Assembly (NCBI RefSeq): GCF_016025255.1
Contig: NZ_CP065592.1
Span: 849,122 to 913,121 of the forward strand
Length of the DNA stretch: 64,000 nt
Reading direction: 5' to 3'
From: Sphingosinicella flava
Lineage (GTDB): Bacteria; Pseudomonadota; Alphaproteobacteria; Sphingomonadales; Sphingomonadaceae
Both the position numbers and the translations under genes were made by a program. Below are positions 4,888 to 31,777 of this stretch, one piece after another. The notes below the pieces were generated by a model. The model was not told the DNA's origin, ran no database searches, and was given only the letters and a program-made list of their open reading frames with translations. Numbering within the stretch: the stretch's first letter is position 1; each line of letters begins with the position of its first letter.

Positions 4888-4916
4888 GAGCGAGGGCAAT
4901 GCCCTCGCTCTTTCTC
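4888..4916 (+). terminator. Rho-independent terminator after the MAPEG gene
   Basis: A ten-base perfect stem GAGCGAGGGC / GCCCTCGCTC with a three-base AAT loop is followed by TTTCTC. The T-run lies on the rightward strand, so it serves the MAPEG gene rather than the convergent RNA methyltransferase. Confidence 0.85.
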
Positions 4917-4969
4917 ATTTCAGAAACAGGATTCCGCTTTTTGTCACTGGACCATCAATTTCATCAACT

Positions 4970-6160
4970 TCACTTCGTAAAGGCGGCAGCCAATTCGGCG
5001 TGCGTGGACCAGCGGAATTGCCCTACCGGCTTCACCCATTCGAGCCGGTAGCCGCCGTCGATCAACATCCTGGCATCGCGCGCGAAGGTGGAGGGGTTAC
5101 AGGATATATAAGCGACGCGCGGCGCGGCGGACCGGGCGAGCACAGCAACCTGCTCCTTCGCGCCCGCGCGCGGCGGATCGAGTATCACGGCTTCGAAGCG
5201 ACCCAATTCCTTCTCGTCTAGCGGGCGGCGGAAGAGGTCGCGATGATCGACGAATACCTCCCGCTGCGCCCGGTTCGCCGCCGCCTTCAGCGACAAAGCC
5301 GCGTCCCGCGCGCCTTCGGCGGCATAGGTTTTGCCCGGCAATGCGAGCGCGAAGGTGCCGAGCCCCGCGAACAGGTCCGCGACGATCCGCGCGGGACCGA
5401 CGGCTTCCCGCATCGCGGCGACCAGTGCCGCCTCGCCTTCCTCCGTCGCCTGCAGGAAGGCGCCATGCGGCAACGGCACCGGAACCCCGCCGAGGGTGAC
5501 CGTCACCGGCTCCGGTTCCCACCGCGTCTGCGGCCCGTAGCCGTCGTCGAGCGCCAGCCGCGCCAGCCGATGCGTCTCGGCGAAGGCCGCCAGCGCCTCG
5601 GTCGCCGCCAGGCTGTCGGCTGCGGCATTTTCGAGCAGCACGTCCACGCCCTGATCGCAGAGCGTCAGCCGCACGCCGCCATTGCCGCGCGGCCCCAGCA
5701 AGGTGCCCATCAAGGCCCGGAGCGGCGCGACCAGGGCAAACAATTCCGGCCGCAGGATATGGCATTCGCGCATGTCGACGATGCGGTGGCTGCGCTCCGC
5801 ATTGAAGCCGAGCAAGACCGTCTTGCCCCGGCTCTCCGCGCGCAGCGAGGCGCGGCGGCGGCTCCTCGGCGGCGAAATATGGGGCGAGCGGATCTCGGCT
5901 TCGAAAATCCCCTGCGCCGCCAGCGCCGAGGCCACCCGGTCGCGCAGGAAGCCGGCGAAAGCGATGTCGTCGATATGCTGAAGCTGGCACCCGCCGCATT
6001 CGGGGAAATGGCGGCAGGGCGGCACGGCATGATGCGGTCCGGGCGTTACGGCCCCGTCCGCGCCGACCAGGTCGCCCGGTGCCGTCATCGGCACATGGCG
6101 CCCGCTTTCCGTCACGCCGTCACCGCGCGCCGCGAGGCGGACGATCGCTTCTTCGCTCAT
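4970..6160 (-). CDS. TrmA/RlmD-family RNA (uracil-5-) methyltransferase
   Basis: The 396-residue cytoplasmic enzyme would methylate a uridine in rRNA or tRNA using SAM. A partial TRAM-like N-terminus is followed by iron-sulfur cysteines (C49, C55, C58 in CRHFPECGGC, and the cysteine of DMRECH). The Rossmann methyltransferase domain follows (ADLFAGLGTFAL), then ILDPPRAG and the catalytic cysteine in SCNPSTFARD. The start at 6160 overlaps the stop of the NAD(P)HX repair gene in an ATGA, indicating translational coupling. It is the last gene of a four-gene leftward operon. Whether it is RlmD-, RlmC- or TrmA-like in target cannot be decided by eye; the cluster cysteines favour the Rlm type. Confidence 0.9.
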   Translation of the reverse strand: MSEEAIVRLAARGDGVTESGRHVPMTAPGDLVGADGAVTPGPHHAVPPCRHFPECGGCQLQHIDDIAFAGFLRDRVASALAAQGIFEAEIRSPHISPPRSRRRASLRAESRGKTVLLGFNAERSHRIVDMRECHILRPELFALVAPLRALMGTLLGPRGNGGVRLTLCDQGVDVLLENAAADSLAATEALAAFAETHRLARLALDDGYGPQTRWEPEPVTVTLGGVPVPLPHGAFLQATEEGEAALVAAMREAVGPARIVADLFAGLGTFALALPGKTYAAEGARDAALSLKAAANRAQREVFVDHRDLFRRPLDEKELGRFEAVILDPPRAGAKEQVAVLARSAAPRVAYISCNPSTFARDARMLIDGGYRLEWVKPVGQFRWSTHAELAAAFTK

Positions 6161-7623
6161 AGACATTCTCGAAGCGCCTCGCCCAGATGCCCGATCAGAT
6201 CGTCGGCGATCAGAAACGGCCCGGCCAATTCGGCCGCCCGGCCATGCAGCCAGACGGCGGCGCAAGCGGCCTCGAACGGCGGCATTCCCCTCGCCCGCAT
6301 CGCCGCGACAATCCCGGCCAGCACATCCCCCGTCCCCGCCGTCGCGAGCCAGGCGGGAGCAGCAGCTGAAATCGCCGCCCGCCCGTCCGGCCCGGCGACA
6401 ACGGTGTCCGCACCCTTCAAAAGAATGACGGCGTTGGCGCGAACGGCGGCGGCGCGCGCCTGCTCAACCTTGCTCCCCGCCAGCGTCCCGAACAGCCGCG
6501 CGAATTCGCCGCCATGCGGGGTGAGGATCGGCAGTTCGGAGGAGTCAGAAAACAGGCCCCAATCCTCTCCGACAAGGTTCAGCGCGTCGGCGTCGAGAAT
6601 GAGCGGGTGCCGGGCTTCAATGGCTTGGTGCAAAAGCGACCTGGAGCGGCCCGAGCGCCCAAGACCCGGCCCGGCGAGAAGAGCATTCACGCGGGGGTCG
6701 GCAAGTAAGGCCGCAACATCATCATTGTGCTCCGGCGCAGGCCGGAGCCCAGTTTCTCCTTTTGGCGCGGCTGGGCTCCGGCCTGCGCCGGAGCATAATG
6801 GAGATTGCACCACCGCCTGGGGCACATCAGGGACAAATGCATCGGCGATCAGCCGCACATAGCCGGCTCCAGCCCGCATCGCCGCCGACGCGCACAGCGC
6901 CGCCGCGCCGGGCATTTCGCCGCCGACGACCGAGACATAACCACGATCATATTTGTGCTCGTCCGGACCCGGCGCGCTGAGGAGCGGGCGCCCGATCCGG
7001 CTAAGATTGCTCCGGGCCGCGATCCCGATATCGGCCAGCACGATCCGCCCCACATGCCGCGCGGCAGGCTGGAGCAGATGGGACGGCTTCAACGCCCCAA
7101 AGGTCACCGTCATGTCGAAGTCCGGAACCGGCGACAGGATCGCGCCGTCGTCGCTCGCCACGCCGCTCGGCAGGTCGACCGCCGCCTTGACCCGCGCTTC
7201 GCCCGCCAGCCGCAGCAGGGCACCGCTCAACGCCGCATCCAAGGGCCTCGATAGTCCTGTTCCGAATAAGGCGTCGATCAGCAGCGGCGCGCTCTCGGCG
7301 GCCTCGATGGGCTCGACAGACCCGGACCACGCCGCCCGGGCATCGCGTGCGATCTGGGACACTGGGTCACCCGTCACCGCGATCCGCACGTCCACACCCG
7401 CCTCCGCCAGCCGCCGCGCGATCACATAGCCGTCGCCGCCATTATTGCCCGGCCCGCACAGTATCAGGGCCGGCAAGGGCCCGGCAAAGGCCCGGATCGC
7501 CGCCGCCGCCGCCTGCCCCGCTCTTTCCATCAGAGCCCGCGCGGGCGTGTCCGCCGCGACGGCGGCTTCCTCCGCGGCGCGCATCTCGGCGGCGGTGAGG
7601 ATCGGGTCAGCGGAGCGCATCAT
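6157..7623 (-). CDS. nnr: Bifunctional NAD(P)H-hydrate epimerase / ADP-dependent NAD(P)HX dehydratase
   Basis: The 488-residue fusion repairs hydrated NADH and NADPH. The N-terminal YjeF/NnrE epimerase domain has the GPGNNGGDGYVIARRL loop and DLPSGV. The C-terminal NnrD dehydratase domain has LTPHGGEFARLFG and the ribokinase-like GTGDVLAGI motif. At residues 277-299, near the start of the NnrD domain, the reading frame passes through a perfect 25-bp inverted repeat that adds a Gly/Pro/Ala-rich insert without breaking the frame. The start overlaps the end of the upstream amidohydrolase gene by 17 bases, and the stop overlaps the downstream methyltransferase start. ATG 7620 is an equally possible start. 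Confidence 0.93.
   Translation of the reverse strand: MMRSADPILTAAEMRAAEEAAVAADTPARALMERAGQAAAAAIRAFAGPLPALILCGPGNNGGDGYVIARRLAEAGVDVRIAVTGDPVSQIARDARAAWSGSVEPIEAAESAPLLIDALFGTGLSRPLDAALSGALLRLAGEARVKAAVDLPSGVASDDGAILSPVPDFDMTVTFGALKPSHLLQPAARHVGRIVLADIGIAARSNLSRIGRPLLSAPGPDEHKYDRGYVSVVGGEMPGAAALCASAAMRAGAGYVRLIADAFVPDVPQAVVQSPLCSGAGRSPAAPKGETGLRPAPEHNDDVAALLADPRVNALLAGPGLGRSGRSRSLLHQAIEARHPLILDADALNLVGEDWGLFSDSSELPILTPHGGEFARLFGTLAGSKVEQARAAAVRANAVILLKGADTVVAGPDGRAAISAAAPAWLATAGTGDVLAGIVAAMRARGMPPFEAACAAVWLHGRAAELAGPFLIADDLIGHLGEALRECL
6728..6795. repeat. Perfect inverted-repeat element inside the nnr coding region
   Basis: Arms 6728-6752 and 6771-6795 are perfect reverse complements (25 bp) around an 18-base loop. 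The core is GCTCC-N10-GGAGCCCAG. The element is in frame, adding residues to the protein. It belongs to the same family as the hairpin in ispE at 11512-11577. Confidence 0.9.
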
Positions 7624-8329
7624 GGGTTTCGCGAATGACCGGAACCAGAATGTCGGCCCAGCGCGTCACGCCAGCTTCCTTCAGGATCAGATCCTGCCGC
7701 ACCTCGATGGCGAGATAGGGGAGCCCCCGGCTCTCCGCATGCCGATCCATCGTCGCGTTGAGCAGCTTGCCCGAATAGGGTTCGTTGTCGCCGGTCGGAA
7801 TGCCCCGGGCGCGCAAGCGGTCTATGGCGATCCGCGCCGCACGGTCGTCATTGTTGTAGAGCAGGCCCACTTCCCACGGGCGCGCTTTATCGGGTTCGGT
7901 CCGCAGCCGGGGCGTGAAGCTATGGAGGGTGAAGAGCATGGCGGGCTTCAACGCCTCGACCTTCTCCTCGATCAGCGCATGATAGGGCCGGTAGAAGCGC
8001 GCAATCCGCGCCTCCCGCCCTTCGGCGTGAAGATCGGTATTGCCGGGAACGACATGGCCGTCGCTCACCGGCGGAATGGCGGCAAGCTCATGTTCGTGCC
8101 GGTGCAGATCGACTACCAGCCGCGACACCCGCGCCAGGATCGCCGGACAACCGAGCCGCGCCGCGACGATCCGGGCAAGCGGATCGATGCCGATGTCGAC
8201 CGCGATATGATCGTCGAGCAGAGCGGGATCGATGCCGAGGTCGATATCGTCTGGCACATGATTGGAGGCGTGATCGGCGACGAGCAGCAGGCCATCCGCC
8301 TGCCCCTCGATAAACTCCGCCACGCTCAT
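7607..8329 (-). CDS. N-formylglutamate amidohydrolase family protein
   Basis: The 240-residue cytoplasmic hydrolase belongs to the N-formylglutamate amidohydrolase / HutG family. Visible parts are VADHASNHVP near residue 20, DLHRHE in the middle, TLHSFTP and AIEVRQDLI. The known reaction is hydrolysis of N-formyl-L-glutamate to glutamate and formate in histidine degradation. No other hut gene is nearby, so the substrate here is open. It overlaps the enoyl-CoA hydratase stop in an ATGA and overlaps the next gene by 17 bases, so all four genes of this operon are translationally coupled. Confidence 0.88.
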   Translation of the reverse strand: MSVAEFIEGQADGLLLVADHASNHVPDDIDLGIDPALLDDHIAVDIGIDPLARIVAARLGCPAILARVSRLVVDLHRHEHELAAIPPVSDGHVVPGNTDLHAEGREARIARFYRPYHALIEEKVEALKPAMLFTLHSFTPRLRTEPDKARPWEVGLLYNNDDRAARIAIDRLRARGIPTGDNEPYSGKLLNATMDRHAESRGLPYLAIEVRQDLILKEAGVTRWADILVPVIRETHDALR

Positions 8330-9063
8330 TTCTTCACCCTCAGCGCCACGCGCGCGGCGAGCGCTTCGGATGCCATCAAGGCGTCGAACAATCGATCCTG
8401 TTCCCCGTCCTGCCGCTGCCCCGCGCCCGCCAACCGGACGCCGCGCCGCAGCGCCGCGAGGCTCTCGGGATCGAAGGAGGCAATGCTGCGGACCAGGGCT
8501 TCCGCCGCCTCATCCGGGCAATCGCTGGCAATCTCGGCCAGGCCGATGACGGAAGCCTCACCCCCACTCACCGGAGCGGCGGAAAGCAAAAGCCGTTGCG
8601 CCTGCCCCGGCCCGACAAGCTGGACGAGCCGGTAAATGTCTTCTTGGGGGTATGATATGCCGAGCTTCGCGGGCGTGATCGCCATCTGCGCATGGGTCGC
8701 CGCGACCCGAATGTCGCAAGCCATGGCGATCGCCACCCCCGCGCCATAACACGCCCCCTCGATCACAGCGACACTCGGAATGGAAAGCCCCGCCAGCCGA
8801 TCGAGCGCTCGCCGCATCGCCGCGCGAAAGGCGCCCGCCGCCGCCGCGTCGTCAGCAAAGCCCGCAAAATCCGAAATGTCCGCCCCCGCGCAAAAGGCCC
8901 CGCCCGGCACGCCGGAAAGCACCAGCACCCGCGCGCCGCTCTCCTCGGCCTCACCGAGCGCCGCCTCCAGCATCCCCCACCCCGCCAAGGGCACCGCATT
9001 GCGCGCCTCCGGCCGGTTCATCCGCAACCGGGCAATGCCGTCGTCGAGAGTGAGGTTGAACAT
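8326..9063 (-). CDS. Enoyl-CoA hydratase/isomerase family protein
   Basis: The 245-residue crotonase-fold protein has the oxyanion-hole segments AFCAGADISDF and EGACYGAGVAIAMACD, plus RVAATHAQMAITPAKLGI. The likely role is hydration of enoyl-CoA in fatty-acid or branched-chain degradation. The first catalytic glutamate typical of hydratases is not evident, so isomerase or another crotonase activity is possible. ATG 9063 is chosen for the GAGGAG four bases upstream. It is the first gene of the leftward operon and is divergent from the ParD-like gene. Confidence 0.88.
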   Translation of the reverse strand: MFNLTLDDGIARLRMNRPEARNAVPLAGWGMLEAALGEAEESGARVLVLSGVPGGAFCAGADISDFAGFADDAAAAGAFRAAMRRALDRLAGLSIPSVAVIEGACYGAGVAIAMACDIRVAATHAQMAITPAKLGISYPQEDIYRLVQLVGPGQAQRLLLSAAPVSGGEASVIGLAEIASDCPDEAAEALVRSIASFDPESLAALRRGVRLAGAGQRQDGEQDRLFDALMASEALAARVALRVKK

Positions 9064-25873: not shown

Positions 25874-26182
25874 CTAGGATTTGACGCCGCTGGGCTCGAC
25901 GACCGCCGGCGGGTGAAAAAGACATCCTTGGCAAACCGGGGGCTCGGGTGGCTGAGCACCCAGGTTCAGGATACCGGTTGCTACGGCCTGCGCAATCATA
26001 TGGGCCCGGTTTCGCGCGCGCATCTTCATGCGCACATTTTCGATATGCCTTTCGACCGTCCGTGGCGCGATGCCGATTTGGTGCGCCACCTCCTTGGCGG
26101 AAAGGCCGTTGGCGACAAGCTCCAGCACCTCGTTTTCGCGGCGCGTCAAATCGGGTTCCGACCCCTGCTCGTTCCACGACAT
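25874..26182 (-). CDS. Stand-alone LuxR-type helix-turn-helix regulator
   Basis: The 102-residue protein is essentially a single GerE/LuxR DNA-binding domain. LTRRENEVLELVANGLSAKE and IGIAPRTVERHIENVRMKM give the four-helix module, with a short C-terminal tail containing two cysteines (PVCQGCLF). There is no receiver, autoinducer or ATPase domain, so its activity is probably set by its own expression or by a partner. AGGGGA precedes ATG 26182. It is divergent from the CRP-type gene across 311 bases and flanks the secretion locus at 27-31 kb, which it may control (inference from position). Confidence 0.85.
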   Translation of the reverse strand: MSWNEQGSEPDLTRRENEVLELVANGLSAKEVAHQIGIAPRTVERHIENVRMKMRARNRAHMIAQAVATGILNLGAQPPEPPVCQGCLFHPPAVVEPSGVKS

Positions 26183-26396
26183 TCAAATTCCCCTGTTTTT
26201 ATGGGGCGCGGCCGCCAGTGCCAGTCGGCATTGCTGGAGGCGACGTTCCATCACGATTTTCGTAAGCGGATACTCCTGTTGTAGCGACGTTTCCGGCGTA
26301 GCTGCGCGCACTCCACGCCTCCATGCAGAAGCCTTTGCTTATAGGGGGAAAATGCACGGAAAACGACTCGGTAAATCTACCTAGACCAAGTTCCTA

Positions 26397-26428
26397 CGCA
26401 AATCGTCCGCGTATTCTATCCATTTGCG
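26397..26428. promoter_or_regulatory. Inverted repeat in the LuxR/CRP divergent region
   Basis: CGCAAAT (26397-26403) and ATTTGCG (26422-26428) form a perfect seven-base inverted repeat with an 18-base spacer, about 70 bases before the CRP-type start. TTTGCGAA occurs here and again at 31171-31178 upstream of the first secreted-protein gene. The rest of the 311-base gap (26183-26493) shows no gene. Confidence 0.35.
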
Positions 26429-26493
26429 AATCAACAAGTTTCCCTCACTCTCGGCCTCATAAGCGACCCACGGAAAAAAGAAGGGGACGGCCG

Positions 26494-27189
26494 GTGATAA
26501 CACTCTATCCGCACGACGTTGAGAATGCCGGTCCGGCTGCCTCGAGTTTGCTGCGGATCGGTAAGGGCGTCGCCATTTACTACGAAGGGGACAAGGCGCG
26601 CCGCTGGTATGAGGTTGTGTCGGGGATCGTCCGCACCTGCCGCTATCACGTGGATGGCCACCGTCAGCTGACGGGTTTCTTTTACGCCGGCGATTTCTTC
26701 GGCGTCGACAAGGATCATTACAAGGAAACGGCCGAAGCCGTCACCAATGTCGTCATTCGCCGGCATGGGCCGGAGGCGTCCGCGCAAGGCCGCACCGACG
26801 GCCGGGGCGAGGATACCGAAACGGCCCTGCGCCGGGCGCTCACGAGCGCGCAGCAATGCATCTTCCTCTTGGGCCACCGGACGGCGGCCGAGCGGGTCGC
26901 GGCCTTCCTCCTTGCAGCTGCGCTCCGCCTCGGCGCCACGAAGGGCGTGCCCCTCCCCATGTCACGCAACGACATTGCCGATCATCTCGGCCTGACCATC
27001 CACACGGTCAGCCGCACCATTTCGGATTTGGCACGGCGCCAGCTCATCGCGCTCGAAGGGCCGCAGCGCTTCCGCATCCTGGATGAAGCGGGCCTTCGCG
27101 ACCTCGCCGGTGAGGATCCGTCGCGGGCGCATCAAGACCACTCACTTGAAATCCCTATTGGACCAGGGGGTTACCGGGAACTCGCCTGA
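26494..27189 (+). CDS. CRP/FNR family transcriptional regulator
   Basis: The 231-residue regulator has an N-terminal cyclic-nucleotide-binding-like beta roll (KGVAIYYEGDKARRWYEVVSG), a dimer helix (HRTAAERVAAFLLAAALRLG) and a C-terminal winged helix MSRNDIADHLGLTIHTVSRT, the form typical of FixK/FNR-type proteins. There are no N-terminal iron-sulfur cysteines, so it is not an FNR oxygen sensor. GTG 26494 is chosen because it follows a GGGG ribosome binding site and starts the domain; an ATG at 26323 would add an unlikely extension. The barrel gene starts 43 bases downstream on the same strand, so the two are probably one operon. Confidence 0.87.
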   Translation: MITLYPHDVENAGPAASSLLRIGKGVAIYYEGDKARRWYEVVSGIVRTCRYHVDGHRQLTGFFYAGDFFGVDKDHYKETAEAVTNVVIRRHGPEASAQGRTDGRGEDTETALRRALTSAQQCIFLLGHRTAAERVAAFLLAAALRLGATKGVPLPMSRNDIADHLGLTIHTVSRTISDLARRQLIALEGPQRFRILDEAGLRDLAGEDPSRAHQDHSLEIPIGPGGYRELA

Positions 27190-27232
27190 CCGAAAAAAGG
27201 CGCAACAACGAAAACAGACCGGAGGAAAAAGG

Positions 27233-28549
27233 ATGCCGGCAAGATCGGTGAAAAACATGGCGAACGGCCTGGCCCTGGCGGCCATGCTCACCTCGGCCAT
27301 TCCAGCGCGAGCCCAGTCGGCCGACATCGCCGAAGAGCTTCGCAAGCTGCATGCGGAATTGAAGCGCCAGCAGGATTTGCTGCAGAACCAGAATGCACGA
27401 ATCGAGGCGCAGCAAAGGGAGATCGAGGGCCTGAAGGCGGGCCTGGCTCCCGGAGGCTCCGGAGCCGAGCTTGCCATTCCCGGCCTCGCTCCCGGCACTG
27501 ACATTCCCGATCTCTCGACCTTGCGAGGCAGCGGCCTCGTCCAAACCACGCCCACCGGCCAACCGACGGTGTTGTCGGGGCCGCAGCTGCCGGAGCAGCC
27601 GGTAGGCGAAGCGCCGCCCGAACCCGATGCCGAAGTACGCGCCCGGGTCGAAGCCATTCCGCAGGAACAGGGTGTCCTGACCCCCACCGGCCGGATCGTC
27701 CTCGAACCGTCGATCGAATATACGCGCTCCTCCACCAATCGCCTCGTCTTCCGGGGAATCGAACTGGTGCCGGGCATCCAGATCGGCCTTATCGAAGCGA
27801 GCGACGCGGATCGCGATACGATCATCTCCACCGCCGGCGTGCGCTATGGCGTCACGAGCCGGATCGAGGTCGAGGCGCGCCTTCCCTACCTCTATCGCCG
27901 CGACCGGATCGAGGTCGCCCAGCAACGCGACGAAAGCATCGTCCGGACGATCGAGCTCAAGGAAAAGGGCATTGGCGACGTCGAATTCGGCGCACGCTAC
28001 CAGCTCAACAGCCCGCGCGGCCAGCGTCCCATCTGGGTCGCCAGCCTGCGGGTCAAAACGAACACCGGCAAGGGCCCGTTCGATATCGATTATGACGAAT
28101 TCGGCGTGGCAACCGGCCTCGCCACCGGCTCCGGATTCTGGGCGATACAGCCCGGCCTCAACTTCCTCCTGCCCTCCGACCCGGTCGTCATTTACGGGGG
28201 CGGCAGCTACCTTTATCACTTGCCCGCGGACGTCAATCGCCTGGTCGGCGAAGCGCTTATCGGCCGCGTCGATCCGGGCGACGCAATCTCTGCCAATGTC
28301 GGTTTCGGCTTCGCGCTCAACCCGCGCTTCTCCTATTCGCTCGGCTACCGCCATACCTATCTGATGCGGACGAAGACGGAGATTAACGACACCACCCAAT
28401 TCTCCAATACGGGCCATGTCGGGTCGCTCAACATGGGCCTGTCCTATCGCCTGACCCCTCGGCAATCCGTCAATCTCGGCTTCGAATTCGGGGTGACGTC
28501 AGACGCGCCGGACGTCAGCATCACGCTGAAGATCCCGACCAGCTTCTGA
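27233..28549 (+). CDS. Outer-membrane beta-barrel protein with N-terminal coiled coil (FapF-like)
   Basis: The 438-residue protein has a signal peptide (cut near ARA-Q27/28), then an about 40-residue coiled coil (residues 30-70, AEELRKLHAELKRQQDLLQ) and a Gly/Pro-rich linker with GTDIPDLSTLRGSGL. A beta-rich region from about residue 155 follows and ends in the aromatic TSF expected of outer-membrane barrels. The layout of coiled coil, linker and barrel is that of FapF, the secretion pore for Fap functional amyloid. The sequence could equally be a phenol-pathway-type (MetA) barrel. GGAGG at 27221 sets ATG 27233. It ends convergently with the secreted-protein/C39 operon, whose products it may export. 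Confidence 0.75.
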   Translation: MPARSVKNMANGLALAAMLTSAIPARAQSADIAEELRKLHAELKRQQDLLQNQNARIEAQQREIEGLKAGLAPGGSGAELAIPGLAPGTDIPDLSTLRGSGLVQTTPTGQPTVLSGPQLPEQPVGEAPPEPDAEVRARVEAIPQEQGVLTPTGRIVLEPSIEYTRSSTNRLVFRGIELVPGIQIGLIEASDADRDTIISTAGVRYGVTSRIEVEARLPYLYRRDRIEVAQQRDESIVRTIELKEKGIGDVEFGARYQLNSPRGQRPIWVASLRVKTNTGKGPFDIDYDEFGVATGLATGSGFWAIQPGLNFLLPSDPVVIYGGGSYLYHLPADVNRLVGEALIGRVDPGDAISANVGFGFALNPRFSYSLGYRHTYLMRTKTEINDTTQFSNTGHVGSLNMGLSYRLTPRQSVNLGFEFGVTSDAPDVSITLKIPTSF

Positions 28550-28574
28550 CGCGGCCGATCGGCCATGCTATCGG

Positions 28575-29150
28575 TCAGTTGTTAAGGGAATTGAGCGTGG
28601 CGCTCGCAATCGACGCGCCGATCGAATCCGACAGCCGCTCGCTGACGAGGCCGGCGCTGAATTGCTGGAACCCGCCCAGGTCAAGATTCGCGTCGACCTC
28701 CTGCGTGAAATTGACGCCGCTCGCCGTGTTGATGAGCACGTTCTGCAGCCCGCCATCCGTCCGGTGCATCAGCGCGGTCTGGCCCTGGTTGGCGAGATAG
28801 ACGGTGTTGTCGCCGACCCGCATCGTGATACCACCCGTCGACAGGATGCCCGCCTGCAGTTGCGCGGCATCGGCGGGCGTCAACGCGCCCGACATGACCT
28901 CGGTATTGCTGGTTCCCGTGGCGCCCCAATTGACCGTGGTCTGAAGCACGAGCTCGCCGTCGAGGTAAGTCCGGATCTGAGCACCGAGATTGATGTCCAT
29001 TCCGGCGAAGACGAACCCGCCGCGCTGCTCGGCCAGCTCCTCGTCGTCTACCATTTCAAGGGTGTCGAATATCTCGTCGCCTGCCACGGGGGCGTTGGCG
29101 GTGAGAAGAAGGCCGATCACGGCCGTGCGAACGAAGAAAAGTCGTTTCAT
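28575..29150 (-). CDS. Secreted protein with double-glycine pro-segment and NTG motif (last gene of locus)
   Basis: The 191-residue protein has a signal peptide (residues 1-23) followed by VDDEELAEQRGG (34-45). This matches the double-glycine leader pattern: E at -8, L at -7 and GG at -2/-1. The mature part would begin FVFAGMDINLGAQ. Near the C-terminus NVLINTASGVNFTQEVDANL parallels the NTG motif of its neighbours. The composition is Thr/Asn/Gly/Ala-rich with few charged residues and no cysteine, as in fibrillins. The start at 29150 lies one base after the stop of the C39 peptidase gene, so they are coupled. I know no named family for it. Proposed: a substrate of the adjacent peptidase. Confidence 0.75.
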   Translation of the reverse strand: MKRLFFVRTAVIGLLLTANAPVAGDEIFDTLEMVDDEELAEQRGGFVFAGMDINLGAQIRTYLDGELVLQTTVNWGATGTSNTEVMSGALTPADAAQLQAGILSTGGITMRVGDNTVYLANQGQTALMHRTDGGLQNVLINTASGVNFTQEVDANLDLGGFQQFSAGLVSERLSDSIGASIASATLNSLNN

Positions 29151-29151
29151 G

Positions 29152-29928
29152 TCAATTCACCGTTCCTACCCGCACGGCCAGCAAAAGCTGCGGGCTGATC
29201 TGATAATCTGGGGGCAGATGGTCGGTAATGTCGCTGGCCGCGACCCGAAGGGCTCCGCCCTCCTCCATCGGCGCTCGCGACCATGGCCCCCAATCGGAAG
29301 CGAGGTTGAAGCGCGGCGCTTCACCGCCCGCTGTCTGCCGCACGACGAGCGCGATATTGTTCCAATATTTCTTGAAATCGCCCGCGCTATATTCGGTGAG
29401 ACCCAGCATCGGATCGCCGGTCAGCACCCGCCCCTCCTTCACGCCCTTCACCACCACGAAATGCTTGAAGCCGTTGAGGTCGAGGAGGACGATGCTCGGC
29501 CGGTTCATCTTGCCGAGATCGGCGACCGACAGGCGATAGCCTTCGGCCTCATAGCCGAGGCTGCCGAGGAAAGTCTTCATGTCGAACATCGAAAAGCCGA
29601 CCTTGCGGATCGCCGCCTGGTCGCCCGCCTTCCACATCTGCGAAAAGGCTTCGCGCTCGGGCGTGGGTCGGTCGAAATGATAGGTGAGCAGGGTGGCGAC
29701 CGCTGCAGAGCCGCAGCTGAAATCATAAGCCTGGCGGACAACGCTGCGAAACGGAATCGCCCACCAGCTCATCACGTTGACGTCGAAATTGCTGCCCGTC
29801 GCCTCGGTGCCGAGGCGGACCTGCGCGAGCGTCGGAGACGGCATGAGCAGAACCAGGCTGGCGCTCGCTGCCGCGATGGCCAAGGCCGGCAGCACCCGCC
29901 TGCCGCGATATGTCCGCTCTCCCATCAT
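29152..29928 (-). CDS. Periplasmic C39 family peptidase (FapD-like)
   Basis: The 258-residue protein has a signal peptide (hydrophobic segment about residues 13-35, cut near LAQ) and a C39 papain-like domain. Q66 is the oxyanion residue and C72 the nucleophile in RQAYDFSCGSAAVATLL; H156 (FKHFVVVKG) and D172 (LTGDPMLGL) complete the triad. There is no ABC transporter or membrane domain, unlike bacteriocin exporters. A stand-alone exported C39 domain is the FapD architecture. C39 enzymes cut after double-glycine leaders, and the genes on both sides encode proteins with such a site. It lies four bases after the upstream gene and one base before the next. Confidence 0.85.
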   Translation of the reverse strand: MMGERTYRGRRVLPALAIAAASASLVLLMPSPTLAQVRLGTEATGSNFDVNVMSWWAIPFRSVVRQAYDFSCGSAAVATLLTYHFDRPTPEREAFSQMWKAGDQAAIRKVGFSMFDMKTFLGSLGYEAEGYRLSVADLGKMNRPSIVLLDLNGFKHFVVVKGVKEGRVLTGDPMLGLTEYSAGDFKKYWNNIALVVRQTAGGEAPRFNLASDWGPWSRAPMEEGGALRVAASDITDHLPPDYQISPQLLLAVRVGTVN

Positions 29929-29932
29929 GCCC

Positions 29933-30370
29933 TCAATCGCCGACGTTGATCGTGAAATTCATGCCCGTCTGGAGGCTGACCTGCGCGCCGGTATTGATGA
30001 GCAGGTTTCCGATCCCGTTGAAGCTGGACAGGGCGTTGTCGGAAAGCGTCACCGCCCCGGCGATATAATCGCCGTTCAAGATGTTGCCGGACGTGATCGC
30101 CGTCATCGTCTGGTTGGTGATCTGAATGGTCTGGCCGCCGCGCTGCCCGTCCAATTCCTCATTGGAAATGGCCGCCGTGTCGTCCGGAAGGATGTCCGTC
30201 ACAACGTCCTCCTCGGCAACCGGCAGCGGCAGGATCGCGGCCGGAGCGAAGAACATTTCGTCGGTCCTGCTTGTATCGACCGCGTCGACTCTGGCAGGGT
30301 CCGCGATCGCCGGAGACGCTGCGGCGATGAGGCCGCCCGCGACCAGAGCCTTTATCAAATGCGGTTTCAT
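29933..30370 (-). CDS. Small secreted protein with double-glycine pro-segment and NTG motif
   Basis: The 145-residue protein has a signal peptide (1-23), an acidic pro-region and then ISNEELDGQRGG (68-79). The fit to the double-glycine leader is close: I at -12, S at -11, E at -8, L at -7 and GG at -2/-1. The predicted mature part is only 66 residues, QTIQITNQTMTAITSGN onward, and is Asn/Thr/Gly-rich with NLLINTGAQVSLQTGMNF near its end. No cysteine is present. GGGAGAAAG precedes ATG 30370. It follows the terminator at 30389-30420 and precedes the C39 peptidase by four bases. Predicted to be cut by that enzyme; function otherwise unknown. Confidence 0.75.
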   Translation of the reverse strand: MKPHLIKALVAGGLIAAASPAIADPARVDAVDTSRTDEMFFAPAAILPLPVAEEDVVTDILPDDTAAISNEELDGQRGGQTIQITNQTMTAITSGNILNGDYIAGAVTLSDNALSSFNGIGNLLINTGAQVSLQTGMNFTINVGD

Positions 30371-30388
30371 GGCTCTTTCTCCCAAATA

Positions 30389-30420
30389 TAAAAAAGCCGG
30401 GCCGGCGGATGCCGGCCCGG
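30389..30420 (-). terminator. Rho-independent terminator between the first and second genes of the secretion operon
   Basis: Read leftward, a perfect ten-base stem CCGGGCCGGC / GCCGGCCCGG with a four-base loop is followed by CTTTTTTAT. It lies 13 bases after the stop of the Asn-rich gene and before the three downstream genes, so it should act as an attenuator favouring the first gene. Confidence 0.85.
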
Positions 30421-30432
30421 TAGAGCGAAAGC

Positions 30433-31098
30433 TCAGTCGCCGCCGCCGGCGCCGCCATCGTCGGCCGCAGCACCGCCGTCGCCGAAGGTCACGGTGCCCT
30501 GAGCCGCAATATTCGTCGCCGCCTGCACGTTCGCATTCAGGCCGGTATTCCATGCCTGATTGAGGATGCCGGCAAAGGCCGAGAAGGAATTGCCGTTCAC
30601 CGACTGGTCGCCGCTATTGTAGCCGACGCTGCTTTCGGTATCGTCCTCTCCGTCAAAGTCGGCGACTTCGTCCAGTTCGCTGTTCGAATTGACGGCGATC
30701 AGCACCTGGGTCGCGACGATTTCGGCTTGGCCTGAATTGTCGTTATAGGAGTCCTCGGCTTCCGAGTTTCCAGTCAAGGTATTGCCCGAATCCTCAATTT
30801 CGCCACCGCGAGAAGCAGACCATGAGCCATAATTCTCGTTGTCGCGATTATCGCCGTTGTCTTCGACTTCATTGTCGCGATTGTTACCATTATCGTCATT
30901 ATAGCTGTTGACGTCATTATCACGATTATTGCCATTGTCGTCATTATAGCTGTTGACGTCGTTATAGCTGCCGACGTCATTGTTATCGGACGACCCAGGC
31001 CCGGCTTCGTTGACCGAGGAATCTTGCGCGACCGAAGGCGCGGCAAGACCGATTGCCAGGGTAGCGGCGGAAACCGCCAGGATATGCTTGAGTTGCAT
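30433..31098 (-). CDS. Asn/Asp-rich secreted protein, candidate major fibre subunit
   Basis: The 221-residue protein has a signal peptide (cut near VAQ25) and then a low-complexity Asn/Asp/Tyr/Gly region (40-90) holding two perfect 15-residue repeats (NDVNSYNDDNGNNRD, residues 46-60 and 61-75). A second Ser/Asn region follows, then the NTG motif NQAWNTGLNANVQAATNIAA (180-199) and an acidic Gly/Asp tail. It has no cysteine and no EL-type double-glycine leader, although an isolated RGG occurs at 97-99. Its codons are A+T-rich (AAT, GAT, AAC) compared with its neighbours. It is the promoter-proximal gene and is followed by a terminator, as expected for the most abundant subunit. The amyloid role is inference. 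Confidence 0.7.
   Translation of the reverse strand: MQLKHILAVSAATLAIGLAAPSVAQDSSVNEAGPGSSDNNDVGSYNDVNSYNDDNGNNRDNDVNSYNDDNGNNRDNEVEDNGDNRDNENYGSWSASRGGEIEDSGNTLTGNSEAEDSYNDNSGQAEIVATQVLIAVNSNSELDEVADFDGEDDTESSVGYNSGDQSVNGNSFSAFAGILNQAWNTGLNANVQAATNIAAQGTVTFGDGGAAADDGGAGGGD
30874..30963 (-). repeat. Two 45-bp tandem repeats in the Asn-rich gene
   Basis: These bases encode residues 46-75, two identical 15-residue units. A degenerate third unit follows (NEVEDNGDNRD). Nucleotide copies differ slightly at third positions, so the protein repeat is under selection or the duplication is not very recent. Confidence 0.8.
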
Positions 31099-31372: not shown

Positions 31373-31777
31373 ATGTTCACCTTCCTGCTCATCGTTCAGA
31401 CGATCGTCGCGGCGGCGCTCGTCACCGTCATCCTGATGCAGCGTTCGGAAGGCGGCGGCCTGGGCGTCGGCGGCAGCTCGTCGGGCCTCATGACCGCGCG
31501 TGGCGCGGCGGACTTCCTGACCCGTGCGACGGCCGTCCTTGCCGCGCTCTTCATTCTCCTGTCGATCGTGCTGGCGGGCCTTGCCGCCGTCGATCGCGCG
31601 CCGAGCGAGATCGATCCGACGCTCCAGCGCGCCGCACCCGCGTCATCGGCCGTGCCGCTCGCCAATGGAGGCACCGCGGCGCCCGGCGATCCGCTTTCGG
31701 GCGTTGCCGAGCAGGCGGGCAATGTCGCGGTTCCCGCGCAGCCCGCGGCCAATCAGAGCGTTCCGCTCGCCCAGTAA
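31373..31777 (+). CDS. secG: Preprotein translocase subunit SecG
   Basis: The 134-residue inner-membrane subunit of SecYEG has two hydrophobic helices (FTFLLIVQTIVAAALVTVIL and AAVLAALFILLSIVLAGLAA). Between them is the cytoplasmic loop QRSEGGGLGVGGSSSGLM, the SecG signature. The C-terminal tail is long and Ala/Pro-rich, as in many Alphaproteobacteria. ATG 31373 is at the start of the first helix. pyrG follows on the same strand after a repeat, a common alphaproteobacterial order. Confidence 0.93.
   Translation: MFTFLLIVQTIVAAALVTVILMQRSEGGGLGVGGSSSGLMTARGAADFLTRATAVLAALFILLSIVLAGLAAVDRAPSEIDPTLQRAAPASSAVPLANGGTAAPGDPLSGVAEQAGNVAVPAQPAANQSVPLAQ

Follow-up and report, generated by a model that had tools for sequence, protein, structure and literature searches.

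The closest described relatives of the locus studied here are the Fap systems, encoded in Pseudomonas by fapABCDEF, in which exported subunits with Fap-type repeats are accompanied by a periplasmic C39 peptidase (FapD), FapE and an outer-membrane pore (FapF). The Fap survey of 2013 recorded Beta-, Gamma- and Deltaproteobacteria only, and more recent surveys demanded matches to the FapB/FapC repeats. The Fil system (FilA–FilF, "putative pilus system" in NCBIfam) contains a C39 relative (FilB) and a barrel relative (FilC). C39 ABC exporters use the same peptidase family and the classical double-glycine leader L/V-S-x-x-E-L-x-x-x-x-G-G, a leader type typical of bacteriocins and peptide signals. 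Curli (CsgBAC/DEFG), with the LuxR-type regulator CsgD, follow a comparable surface amyloid logic but use a different pore and, to our knowledge, no C39 peptidase.

The window (the whole stretch of 64,000 nucleotides analysed) contains a seven-gene locus which, as judged from its sequence, is a Fap relative of a separate, widespread sister class, with the working name "Fap-II" (class II below).

Organization and regulators of the locus

Based on gene prediction and profile searches, the features in Table 1 were assigned. Every gene named in the preliminary description was found where it had been placed, and its three small secreted proteins (N, B and E) are indeed cysteine-free (0 Cys in each). 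The double-glycine motifs of the 191-aa and 145-aa proteins had been overlooked there. Comparison with the nearest relative places the most likely start of the CRP gene at GTG 26494 and not at 26323.

Table 1. Features of the Fap-II locus (window coordinates)
Feature	Position	Strand	Remarks
LuxR/GerE-type HTH regulator, stand-alone	25874-26182	(-)	divergent from CRP gene
CRP/FNR-type (FixK-like) regulator	26494-27189	(+)	directly 5' of F; GTG start inferred
F, FapF-type outer-membrane pore	27233-28549	(+)	N-terminal coiled coil, linker, barrel; start inferred
LSTLRGSG, leader-like motif in F linker	27512-27535	(+)	between coiled coil and barrel
E, 191-aa exported protein, FapE position	28575-29150	(-)	double-glycine-type leader, then beta-rich part
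Leader end ELAEQRGG, E residues 38-45	29016-29039	(-)
D, exported C39 peptidase, FapD/FilB relative	29152-29928	(-)
B, 145-aa small exported subunit	29933-30370	(-)	predicted mature part 66 aa, one Fap-type repeat
Leader end ELDGQRGG, B residues 72-79	30134-30157	(-)
Terminator-like hairpin, 10 G-C pairs and T run	30397-30420	(-)	N-B gap
N, 221-aa N/D/S-rich exported protein	30433-31098	(-)	without leader motif; C-terminal Fap-type repeat

The gene order had been called distinct, which is true of the inverted F; otherwise the succession substrates-D-E-F is that of Pseudomonas. Unlike the Pseudomonas operon, the locus has its own regulators and encodes no FapA match among its seven proteins. 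In family scans of the window proteins, no curli profile was found except a weak CsgD match of the LuxR-type protein (30.6 bits), which matched Pfam GerE with 65.9 bits. The CRP-type protein matched NCBIfam FixK with 137 bits, below the model cut-off of 300 bits.

The reported linkage of the barrel gene with a CRP-type gene recurs in 20 relative loci, where a CRP homologue (E<1e-20) always lies on the strand of F, separated from it by at most 46 bp or overlapped by a 5' extension of the F frame. Of these 20 loci, 14 have a divergent LuxR homologue (E<1e-20) next to the CRP gene, two have one elsewhere in the locus, and four showed none. The CRP gene and F probably share one transcript, and control of the locus by the CRP/FNR-type and the divergent LuxR-type regulator is probable. 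A search for FNR boxes with up to two mismatches gave 18 sites against 13.6 expected, none of them upstream of the operons and one inside N (30689). Terminator-like hairpins were as frequent in the region as in shuffled sequences (5 found, 5.2 expected); the one between N and B, which has the longest stem listed, may favour the N transcript. Since a hairpin with a T run occurs in only 34 of 96 testable class-II N-B gaps, the N-B terminator was dropped as a fixed trait of the class.

The peptidase D, the pore F and their distribution

The layouts of FapD and FapF, recognized in the preliminary description, were borne out by profile searches. D matched Pfam C39 with 63.5 bits and the FapD and FilB models with 128.2 bits (cut-off 330) and 128.0 bits, both under their cut-offs; its residues Q66, C72, H156 and D172 were invariant among the 20 sequences compared. 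F aligned with FapF of known structure (PDB 5o67) at an E-value of 1.2e-29 across residues 132–437, and with NCBIfam FapF at 138.3 bits (E 2.9e-40; the model cut-off of 700 bits was not reached). The match to FilC was 80.4 bits.

The same barrel carries the Pfam label Phenol_MetA_deg (35.6 bits), and the preliminary description had considered that it might match MetA-type porins only. A porin for hydrophobic compounds standing beside an unrelated peptidase is, nevertheless, a reading with next to no probability: the FapF match is much stronger, a coiled coil is present, and F is linked to D in each of the 34 Sphingomonadales genomes in which it was found, which already contradicts this reading. 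In that survey of 246 genomes of the order, each of the 35 F-type matches lay within 4 kb of a C39 match, so the supposed barrel-C39 linkage recurs across genomes and the association is beyond chance.

In a quick, midpoint-rooted tree of D with SH-aLRT support and without bootstrap, the window D fell outside the FapD clade, in a clade of 115 rows with a support of 94, just under the significance mark of the tool; the adjoining canonical Fap clade comprised 30 rows (SH-aLRT 99). The window clade spans Alpha-, Beta-, Gamma- and delta-type Proteobacteria. The Fil-type D proteins form a third clade (5 rows, 100), and in their loci (L109–L112, L114), unlike in the window, F lies directly 3' of D with no E between them.

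The relatives included at least 80 named loci picked by D similarity (DFSCGSAA and a second pattern), which give no measure of abundance; ORFs and signal peptides were called by simple in-house rules. By tree and gene order, 114 loci were assigned to class II and 29 to the canonical class, and 10 fitted neither and were left aside. A convergent F is the commonest arrangement among the class-II loci read (70 of 114), and an N-like gene is present in 98. Counted by hand from 46 of the 52 matches in a survey of 398 Pseudomonadota genomes, at least 16 genomes carry a class-II locus and at least 20 a canonical one. Fap had been thought to occur mainly in other classes of Proteobacteria. This agrees with the 2013 survey but not with the canonical-clade D found in collinear loci in 11 of the 246 Sphingomonadales genomes (counted by hand).

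Could the locus simply be a canonical Fap operon rearranged locally? Its D-E-F neighbourhood is identical, F and D are homologous to FapF and FapD, and in four of 16 genera fapF has separated from the operon, according to the excerpt of PMC3792158. Against this, D belongs to a separate clade in which the leader on B, single repeats and an E leader ending in RGG instead of RG[KR] are widespread, and local rearrangement is thus very improbable. Of the original view, the Fap-like character stood, through the homology of F and D; a fap operon with shuffled genes did not, given the separate D clade and a subunit set of its own.

Leaders and repeats of the exported proteins

The proteins encoded on both sides of the C39 gene, B and E, bear a double-glycine-type leader behind a Sec signal, and in the window both leaders read RGG. 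Their layout is that of C39 ABC exporter substrates; unlike in those systems, the leader comes after a Sec signal and faces a free, exported peptidase, so the reaction would be periplasmic.

To count the motif, the longest signal-bearing ORF beside D was taken blind to it at 155 anchors; among the 115 class-II anchors, a signal-bearing downstream ORF was lacking at 17 and an upstream ORF of 80–200 aa at 13. Of the 98 class-II downstream neighbours with a signal, 86 contained RGG, and 26 of 29 proteins at the canonical FapE position contained RG[KR]. Upstream of D, 87 of 102 class-II neighbours carried the relaxed motif [LM]xxxxG[GKRQ] and 54 the strict one, compared with 211 and 17 of 1037 in the background; the strict motif was found in none of 102 N proteins. 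The combination of glutamate at -8 and L/I/V/M at -12 occurred in 34 of 96 class-II E proteins, 20 of 25 canonical FapE proteins and 0 of 135 background pattern matches (ORFs more than 3 kb away, not limited to exported proteins). These positions, which lie outside the search pattern, fit a double-glycine leader.

The blind count, on which the conclusions rely, nearly equalled two earlier ones. One gave 113 of 138 (from 158 anchors), an anchor counting as positive when at least one candidate ORF bore the motif; the other, by locus, favoured motif-bearing ORFs where several fitted and gave RGG for 91 of 101 E proteins and the motif for 91 of 110 B proteins. Of the ten class-II E proteins without strict RGG in the locus count, one has RAG, one HGG and one an RGG that precedes the scanned part, while the other seven are long proteins with none in the first 140 residues (that of L180 has RGG further on); about 10 of the 19 B proteins without the motif read RA in place of RG. 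In alignments A2 and A3 the rows were hand-picked from motif-bearing proteins, and the invariant motif columns are partly due to this choice. A comparable element, LSx[VI]TGQ, occupies the same place in FilA-like proteins beside Fil-type D genes (L110, L112); a FilA match sought in window B with NCBIfam was not found. It had also been considered that the CGS or CGA residue beside the catalytic cysteine determines RGG versus RG[KR]; this was dropped because the window-clade CGA loci L101, L105, L147 and L161 keep RGG in E.

This clear leader signal points to B and E as probable substrates of D. The last leader residue varies: G in class-II E proteins, K or R in canonical FapE, and in many B proteins one of R, K and Q. 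The precise cleavage point is therefore uncertain, and binding at the motif with no cut at all is conceivable. D might thus serve as a chaperone or gate-keeper, docked by LxxxRG without a cut, which hands the cargo to F. A similar motif, [LIVM]xxxRG, does occur in 43 of 102 distinct class-II F proteins (shuffles expect 8.5 of 106), although in four of these at the barrel edge and not in the linker; canonical F proteins show it in 4 of 28 (3.1 of 29 expected from shuffles). Non-cutting C39-like domains exist, according to the excerpts of PMC5557850 and PMC5135000. However, all four C39-site residues (Q, C, H and D) are conserved without exception in the 20 sequences compared, and in Pseudomonas, as the excerpt of PMC5557850 has it, FapD C38A abolishes FapC secretion and FapE is seen without its N-terminal peptides. 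We therefore consider a non-cutting D unlikely, although it is the alternative to be taken most seriously. As for F, GG as the main site of D was dropped: 57 of 145 F proteins contain any GG, and 15 match the strict leader pattern.

Whereas FapB and FapC have three imperfect repeats, N and B share a single Fap-type repeat, with a repeat-length match of 36–39 columns in each. In pairwise hhalign comparisons, which are without database calibration, FapB scored 27.9 with B and 26.5 with N (shuffled maximum 12.8), and FapC 19.0 with N (10.9) and 16.8 with B, hardly above its control of 15.0. The C-terminus of N matched the B profile with 97% probability. Searched against 1682 canonical-locus ORFs (E<=0.01), the B profile found 12 matches (11 in FapB position, the other FapE) and the N profile 19 (17 in FapB position, the other two FapC); conversely, all 17 matches of the FapB profile among 6298 class-II ORFs (E<=0.1) were in N or B position. 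N is our candidate for the major subunit.

E matched the FapE profile only in the leader region (residues 10–59, E-value 2.1e-4); mature E had no recognisable similarity to canonical mature FapE (hhalign 2.3%). The AlphaFold2 model of E reached a mean pLDDT of 79.1, and that of B was of low confidence and uninformative (pLDDT 64). None of 36 B and 24 E sequences matched a Pfam family, and NCBIfam gave FapE in 4 of the 24 E (best 2e-4) and single-member matches to unrelated models. An own-genome search with the B alignment for further cargo returned B, a weak match of the N gene (E 0.02) and one at E 0.29.

Double-glycine leaders and a short mature B (median 68 aa, among B proteins chosen for 50–95 aa) would also suit a system exporting small bioactive or signalling peptides, with B bacteriocin-like instead of a fibre subunit. 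This seems improbable: B and N have a Fap-type repeat in common with FapB, N is large and N/D/S-rich, B is just one of three exported proteins, and no ABC exporter is encoded among the seven genes of the locus.

Proposed pathway and its significance

Starting from the computed homology of D and F, their linkage, the leader motif and its position, the similarity of B and N to FapB and the conserved regulators, we infer cleavage, export, fibre formation and regulation as follows. Sec would carry N, B, E, D and F over the inner membrane, and removal of the signal peptides would leave the leader E-L-x-x-x-R-G-G on B and E. The periplasmic D would recognize this leader and cut behind it, releasing mature parts of 66 aa (B) and 146 aa (E), which would exit with N via the FapF-type pore. 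Outside, N as the major and B as a small, nucleator-like subunit would assemble into a fibre-like surface structure by their shared single repeat; E would initiate or anchor it, a role already suggested for FapE. In lineages whose F linker contains L-x-x-x-R-G, as in the window, F may be another target of D, which could thereby gate the pore. Control would probably lie with the two regulators, the CRP/FNR type and the divergent LuxR type. We give this whole scheme a probability of about 0.7. The lack of a leader on N, the RA in place of RG in several B proteins, the variable last leader residue, the dissimilarity of mature E to FapE, the near-control FapC score of B and the single repeats speak against it.

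In a broader sense, and at somewhat better than even odds, these loci may represent an undescribed sister class of Fap, about as common as the canonical one in the Pseudomonadota survey, with maturation by Sec followed by periplasmic processing at a double glycine and with F, too, cut by D in some of its members. The leaders would then reveal the long-sought site of FapD, the canonical FapE motif E-[LM]-x-x-[LMI]-R-G-[KR]-[FY] being this leader with another residue in place of the final glycine. A near-canonical double-glycine leader at the same gene position offers an exact and cheap test. Recent surveys would probably miss this class because they demanded FapB/FapC repeat matches. It would extend Fap-type systems past loci with such matches, and it speaks against the view that the Fap operon is evolutionarily fixed.

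Organization of the locus and its relation to Fap

Every gene named in the preliminary description of this locus was confirmed in the window. B, D and E are closely packed, with intergenic gaps of a few bases. Housekeeping genes for SecG, CTP synthase and a class II tRNA synthetase flank the locus, and the host genome is a single contig of 2.42 Mb. The SecG gene (window 31373-31777) and the N gene are divergently oriented, which places the operon beside a gene of the Sec translocon; the flanking DNA fetched for the relatives' loci yielded no SecG match at E < 1e-8.

Features of the locus in the window
Feature	Position	Strand	Description
N	starts at 31098	-	221 aa, N/D-rich, exported
Terminator-like hairpin	between N and B	-	10 G-C pairs
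B	3' of the hairpin	-	145 aa, exported
D	3' of B	-	C39 peptidase, exported
E	3' of D	-	191 aa, exported
F	convergent with E	+	barrel gene
CRP/FNR-type gene	upstream of F	+ (strand of F)	
LuxR-type gene	upstream of F, divergent	-	stand-alone

The locus encodes, with a probability of about 95%, a Fap-type secretion system. The proposed relationship of the barrel and the C39 protein to FapF and FapD held in profile comparisons: F matched the solved FapF (E 1.2e-29, residues 132-437) and the NCBIfam FapF model (138.3 bits), and D scored 128.2 bits with FapD, nearly equal to its score with FilB (128.0). Both proteins score far under the NCBI equivalog cut-offs, as expected of a sister group of Fap. 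Residues Q66, C72, H156 and D172 of D, the known oxyanion and catalytic residues of C39, were invariant in an alignment of 20 D sequences. At its C-terminus (window 29152-29300), D carries an extension (DWGPWSxAP ... LPPxYQIxPxxLLDVRVGT) that, in this alignment, is common to the window's close relatives and absent from more distant D proteins.

Among 246 genomes of the order, D-like matches occurred in 42 and F-like matches in 34. The suggested linkage of the two genes held in the F-positive genomes: all 35 F matches (34 genomes) lay within 4 kb of D. For this analysis, 34 F-positive loci besides that of the window and one C39 locus (L066) were fetched; the search with the F-type query saw no F in L066, where an F-like gene was later detected by profile. 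In seven of the eight C39-positive genomes without an F match, the open frame at the position of the C39 match is 533-777 aa long, as ABC exporters would show.

A CRP/FNR-type gene lies directly 5' of F on the same strand in 20/20 relative loci with a match at E < 1e-20; next to it, 14 of these loci have a LuxR-type gene in divergent orientation. A search for an FNR box revealed none outstanding.

A class separate from canonical Fap

In a quick tree built from 155 D sequences after masking the residue next to the catalytic Cys, canonical Fap formed one clade (30 rows, SH-aLRT 99), the window D fell in another (115 rows, SH-aLRT 94) and Fil-like sequences formed a third (5 rows, SH-aLRT 100). 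Judged from these sequences, the window D belongs to a class separate from canonical Fap, here called class II. The best named D relatives among the matches listed were from Sphingomonadaceae and Sphingopyxis. Names in this clade, again among the matches listed, include Sphingopyxis, Novosphingobium, Caulobacteraceae and Rhodospirillales, and also Marinobacter, Ectothiorhodospira, Cupriavidus, Massilia, Paraburkholderia, Lysobacter and Geobacteraceae. By hand count, class II occurred in 22 and canonical Fap in 11 of the 246 genomes of the order, with one genome carrying both; in a survey of 398 genomes of the phylum, the hand counts were at least 16 and at least 20, respectively, based on the 46 of 52 matches that were fetched. 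Of 114 class II loci, 70 have F convergent downstream and 29 have it collinear downstream; it lies elsewhere in 9, and no F was found in 6. Among canonical loci, F is collinear downstream in 28/29.

Both systems were seen in single genomes (L052/L061 in G091, L087/L104 in G275 and L085/L105 in G330), and G330 has two canonical D genes within one locus. Locus L096 (G379, about 4900-8600) carries the class II cassette in two tandem copies with identical D rows in the tree, which points to a recent duplication. Canonical loci of this order (L051, L054-L063) have an additional small exported gene between fapE and fapF, whose product reads FAVEGxGxxxCxxF...YLSAANxYEPNTFDLTPWH.

According to a 2013 study (PMC3792158), Fap was limited to Beta-, Gamma- and Deltaproteobacteria, and non-specific FapD/FapF matches were ascribed to larger families; five further phyla with fapD-fapF pairs were reported in 2018 (PMC6173800, PMC6173795). 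FapB/C repeat matches were a requirement in two surveys from 2025 (PMC12392863, PMC12822426). No description of class II or its leader was found in listings from the open-licence literature or in the papers cited here.

Leader sequences of E and B and a leader-like motif in F

The window E reads VDDEELAEQRGG, followed by FVF, and the window B reads ISNEELDGQRGG, followed by QTI; both stretches lie behind the signal peptide and ahead of the mature part. The motif was recounted blindly by scoring the longest signal-bearing ORF adjoining D, whatever its sequence. The class II downstream ORF carried [LM]xxxRGG in 86/98 cases, and the upstream ORF carried this strict motif in 54/102 and a relaxed form, [LM]xxxxG[GKRQ], in 87/102; among 1037 background signal-bearing ORFs the numbers were 17 and 211. 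The downstream frequency thus departs very strongly from chance, and the upstream frequency clearly exceeds chance. N had the strict motif in 0/102. The canonical downstream ORF carried RG[KR] in 26/29 cases and RGG in none. In a separate count of canonical FapE, the three exceptions read HGK (2) and TGK (1).

The classical double-glycine leader has the consensus LSxxELxxIxGG, for which a literature text search returned nothing. Columns outside the search pattern agree with such a leader: the combination of Glu at -8 and L/I/V/M at -12 was present in 34/96 class II E, 20/25 canonical FapE and 0/135 background pattern matches, the last not restricted to exported proteins. In canonical FapE (n = 27), position -4 is M/L/I in about 95%. 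In an alignment of 24 E sequences, picked from motif-bearing proteins, the sole invariant columns were the start Met, L39, R43, G44, G45 and one Asn. The AlphaFold model of E has a helix at residues 36-42 directly before RGG (block pLDDT about 76-77), as expected of double-glycine leaders. In four Fil-like loci (L110, L111, L112, L114), the proteins before the C39 gene have LSx[VI]TGQ or LEQATGQ in the position of the leader; recognition of this type may therefore also operate in the Fil system.

D probably acts on the B and E leaders. The last leader residue is variable, which leaves room for docking without cutting (for C39-like domains that do not cut, see PMC5135000 and PMC5557850). The FapD target was called unclear in a 2017 study, which also proposed that FapF is possibly cut by FapD (PMC5557850); in 2025, FapE and FapF were thought to be processed by FapD (PMC12392863, PMC12822426). 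The motif [LIVM]xxxRG precedes the barrel in 43/102 distinct class II F, 4 of the 43 at the barrel edge (8.5/106 expected from shuffles), and was found in 4/28 canonical F (3.1/29 expected). The window F reads LSTLRGSG. This motif fits the 2017 proposal for part of the class only.

Subunits and a proposed route of assembly

Mature B is similar to the C-terminal 75 residues of N (hhalign 97%, E 1e-10). In pairwise hhalign scores against canonical FapB over 36-39 columns, B reached 27.9 and N 26.5, compared with a column-shuffled maximum of 12.8, and both aligned to one and the same FapB stretch; the published Fap repeat model has 39 residues (PMC12392863). Against the FapC profile, B (16.8) was hardly over its shuffled control (15.0) and N (19.0) moderately over its own (10.9). 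Among 1682 canonical-locus ORFs at E <= 0.01, the B profile found 12 matches (11 at the FapB position, 1 FapE) and the N profile 19 (17 at the FapB position, 2 FapC). Conversely, among 6298 class II ORFs the FapB profile gave 17 matches at E <= 0.1 (14 at the B and 3 at the N position) and the FapC profile gave 6, five of them B. The NCBIfam FapB model matched one class II B (L104, E 4e-4) and an Acidithiobacillus N (L162:4462-5529, E 7e-13) of intermediate appearance. The Acidithiobacillus loci L162 and L166, with a FapB-like N inside a window-type locus, are likely a link between both classes.

By homology with Fap, we suggest the following route. The subunits would be exported via Sec, D would remove the leader from B and E, and the proteins would pass through F; on the outside, N and B may then assemble, and E would serve as initiator or anchor. 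Leader cleavage, the direction of passage through the pore F and fibre formation are all predicted from this relationship, and a fibrous product is somewhat favoured.
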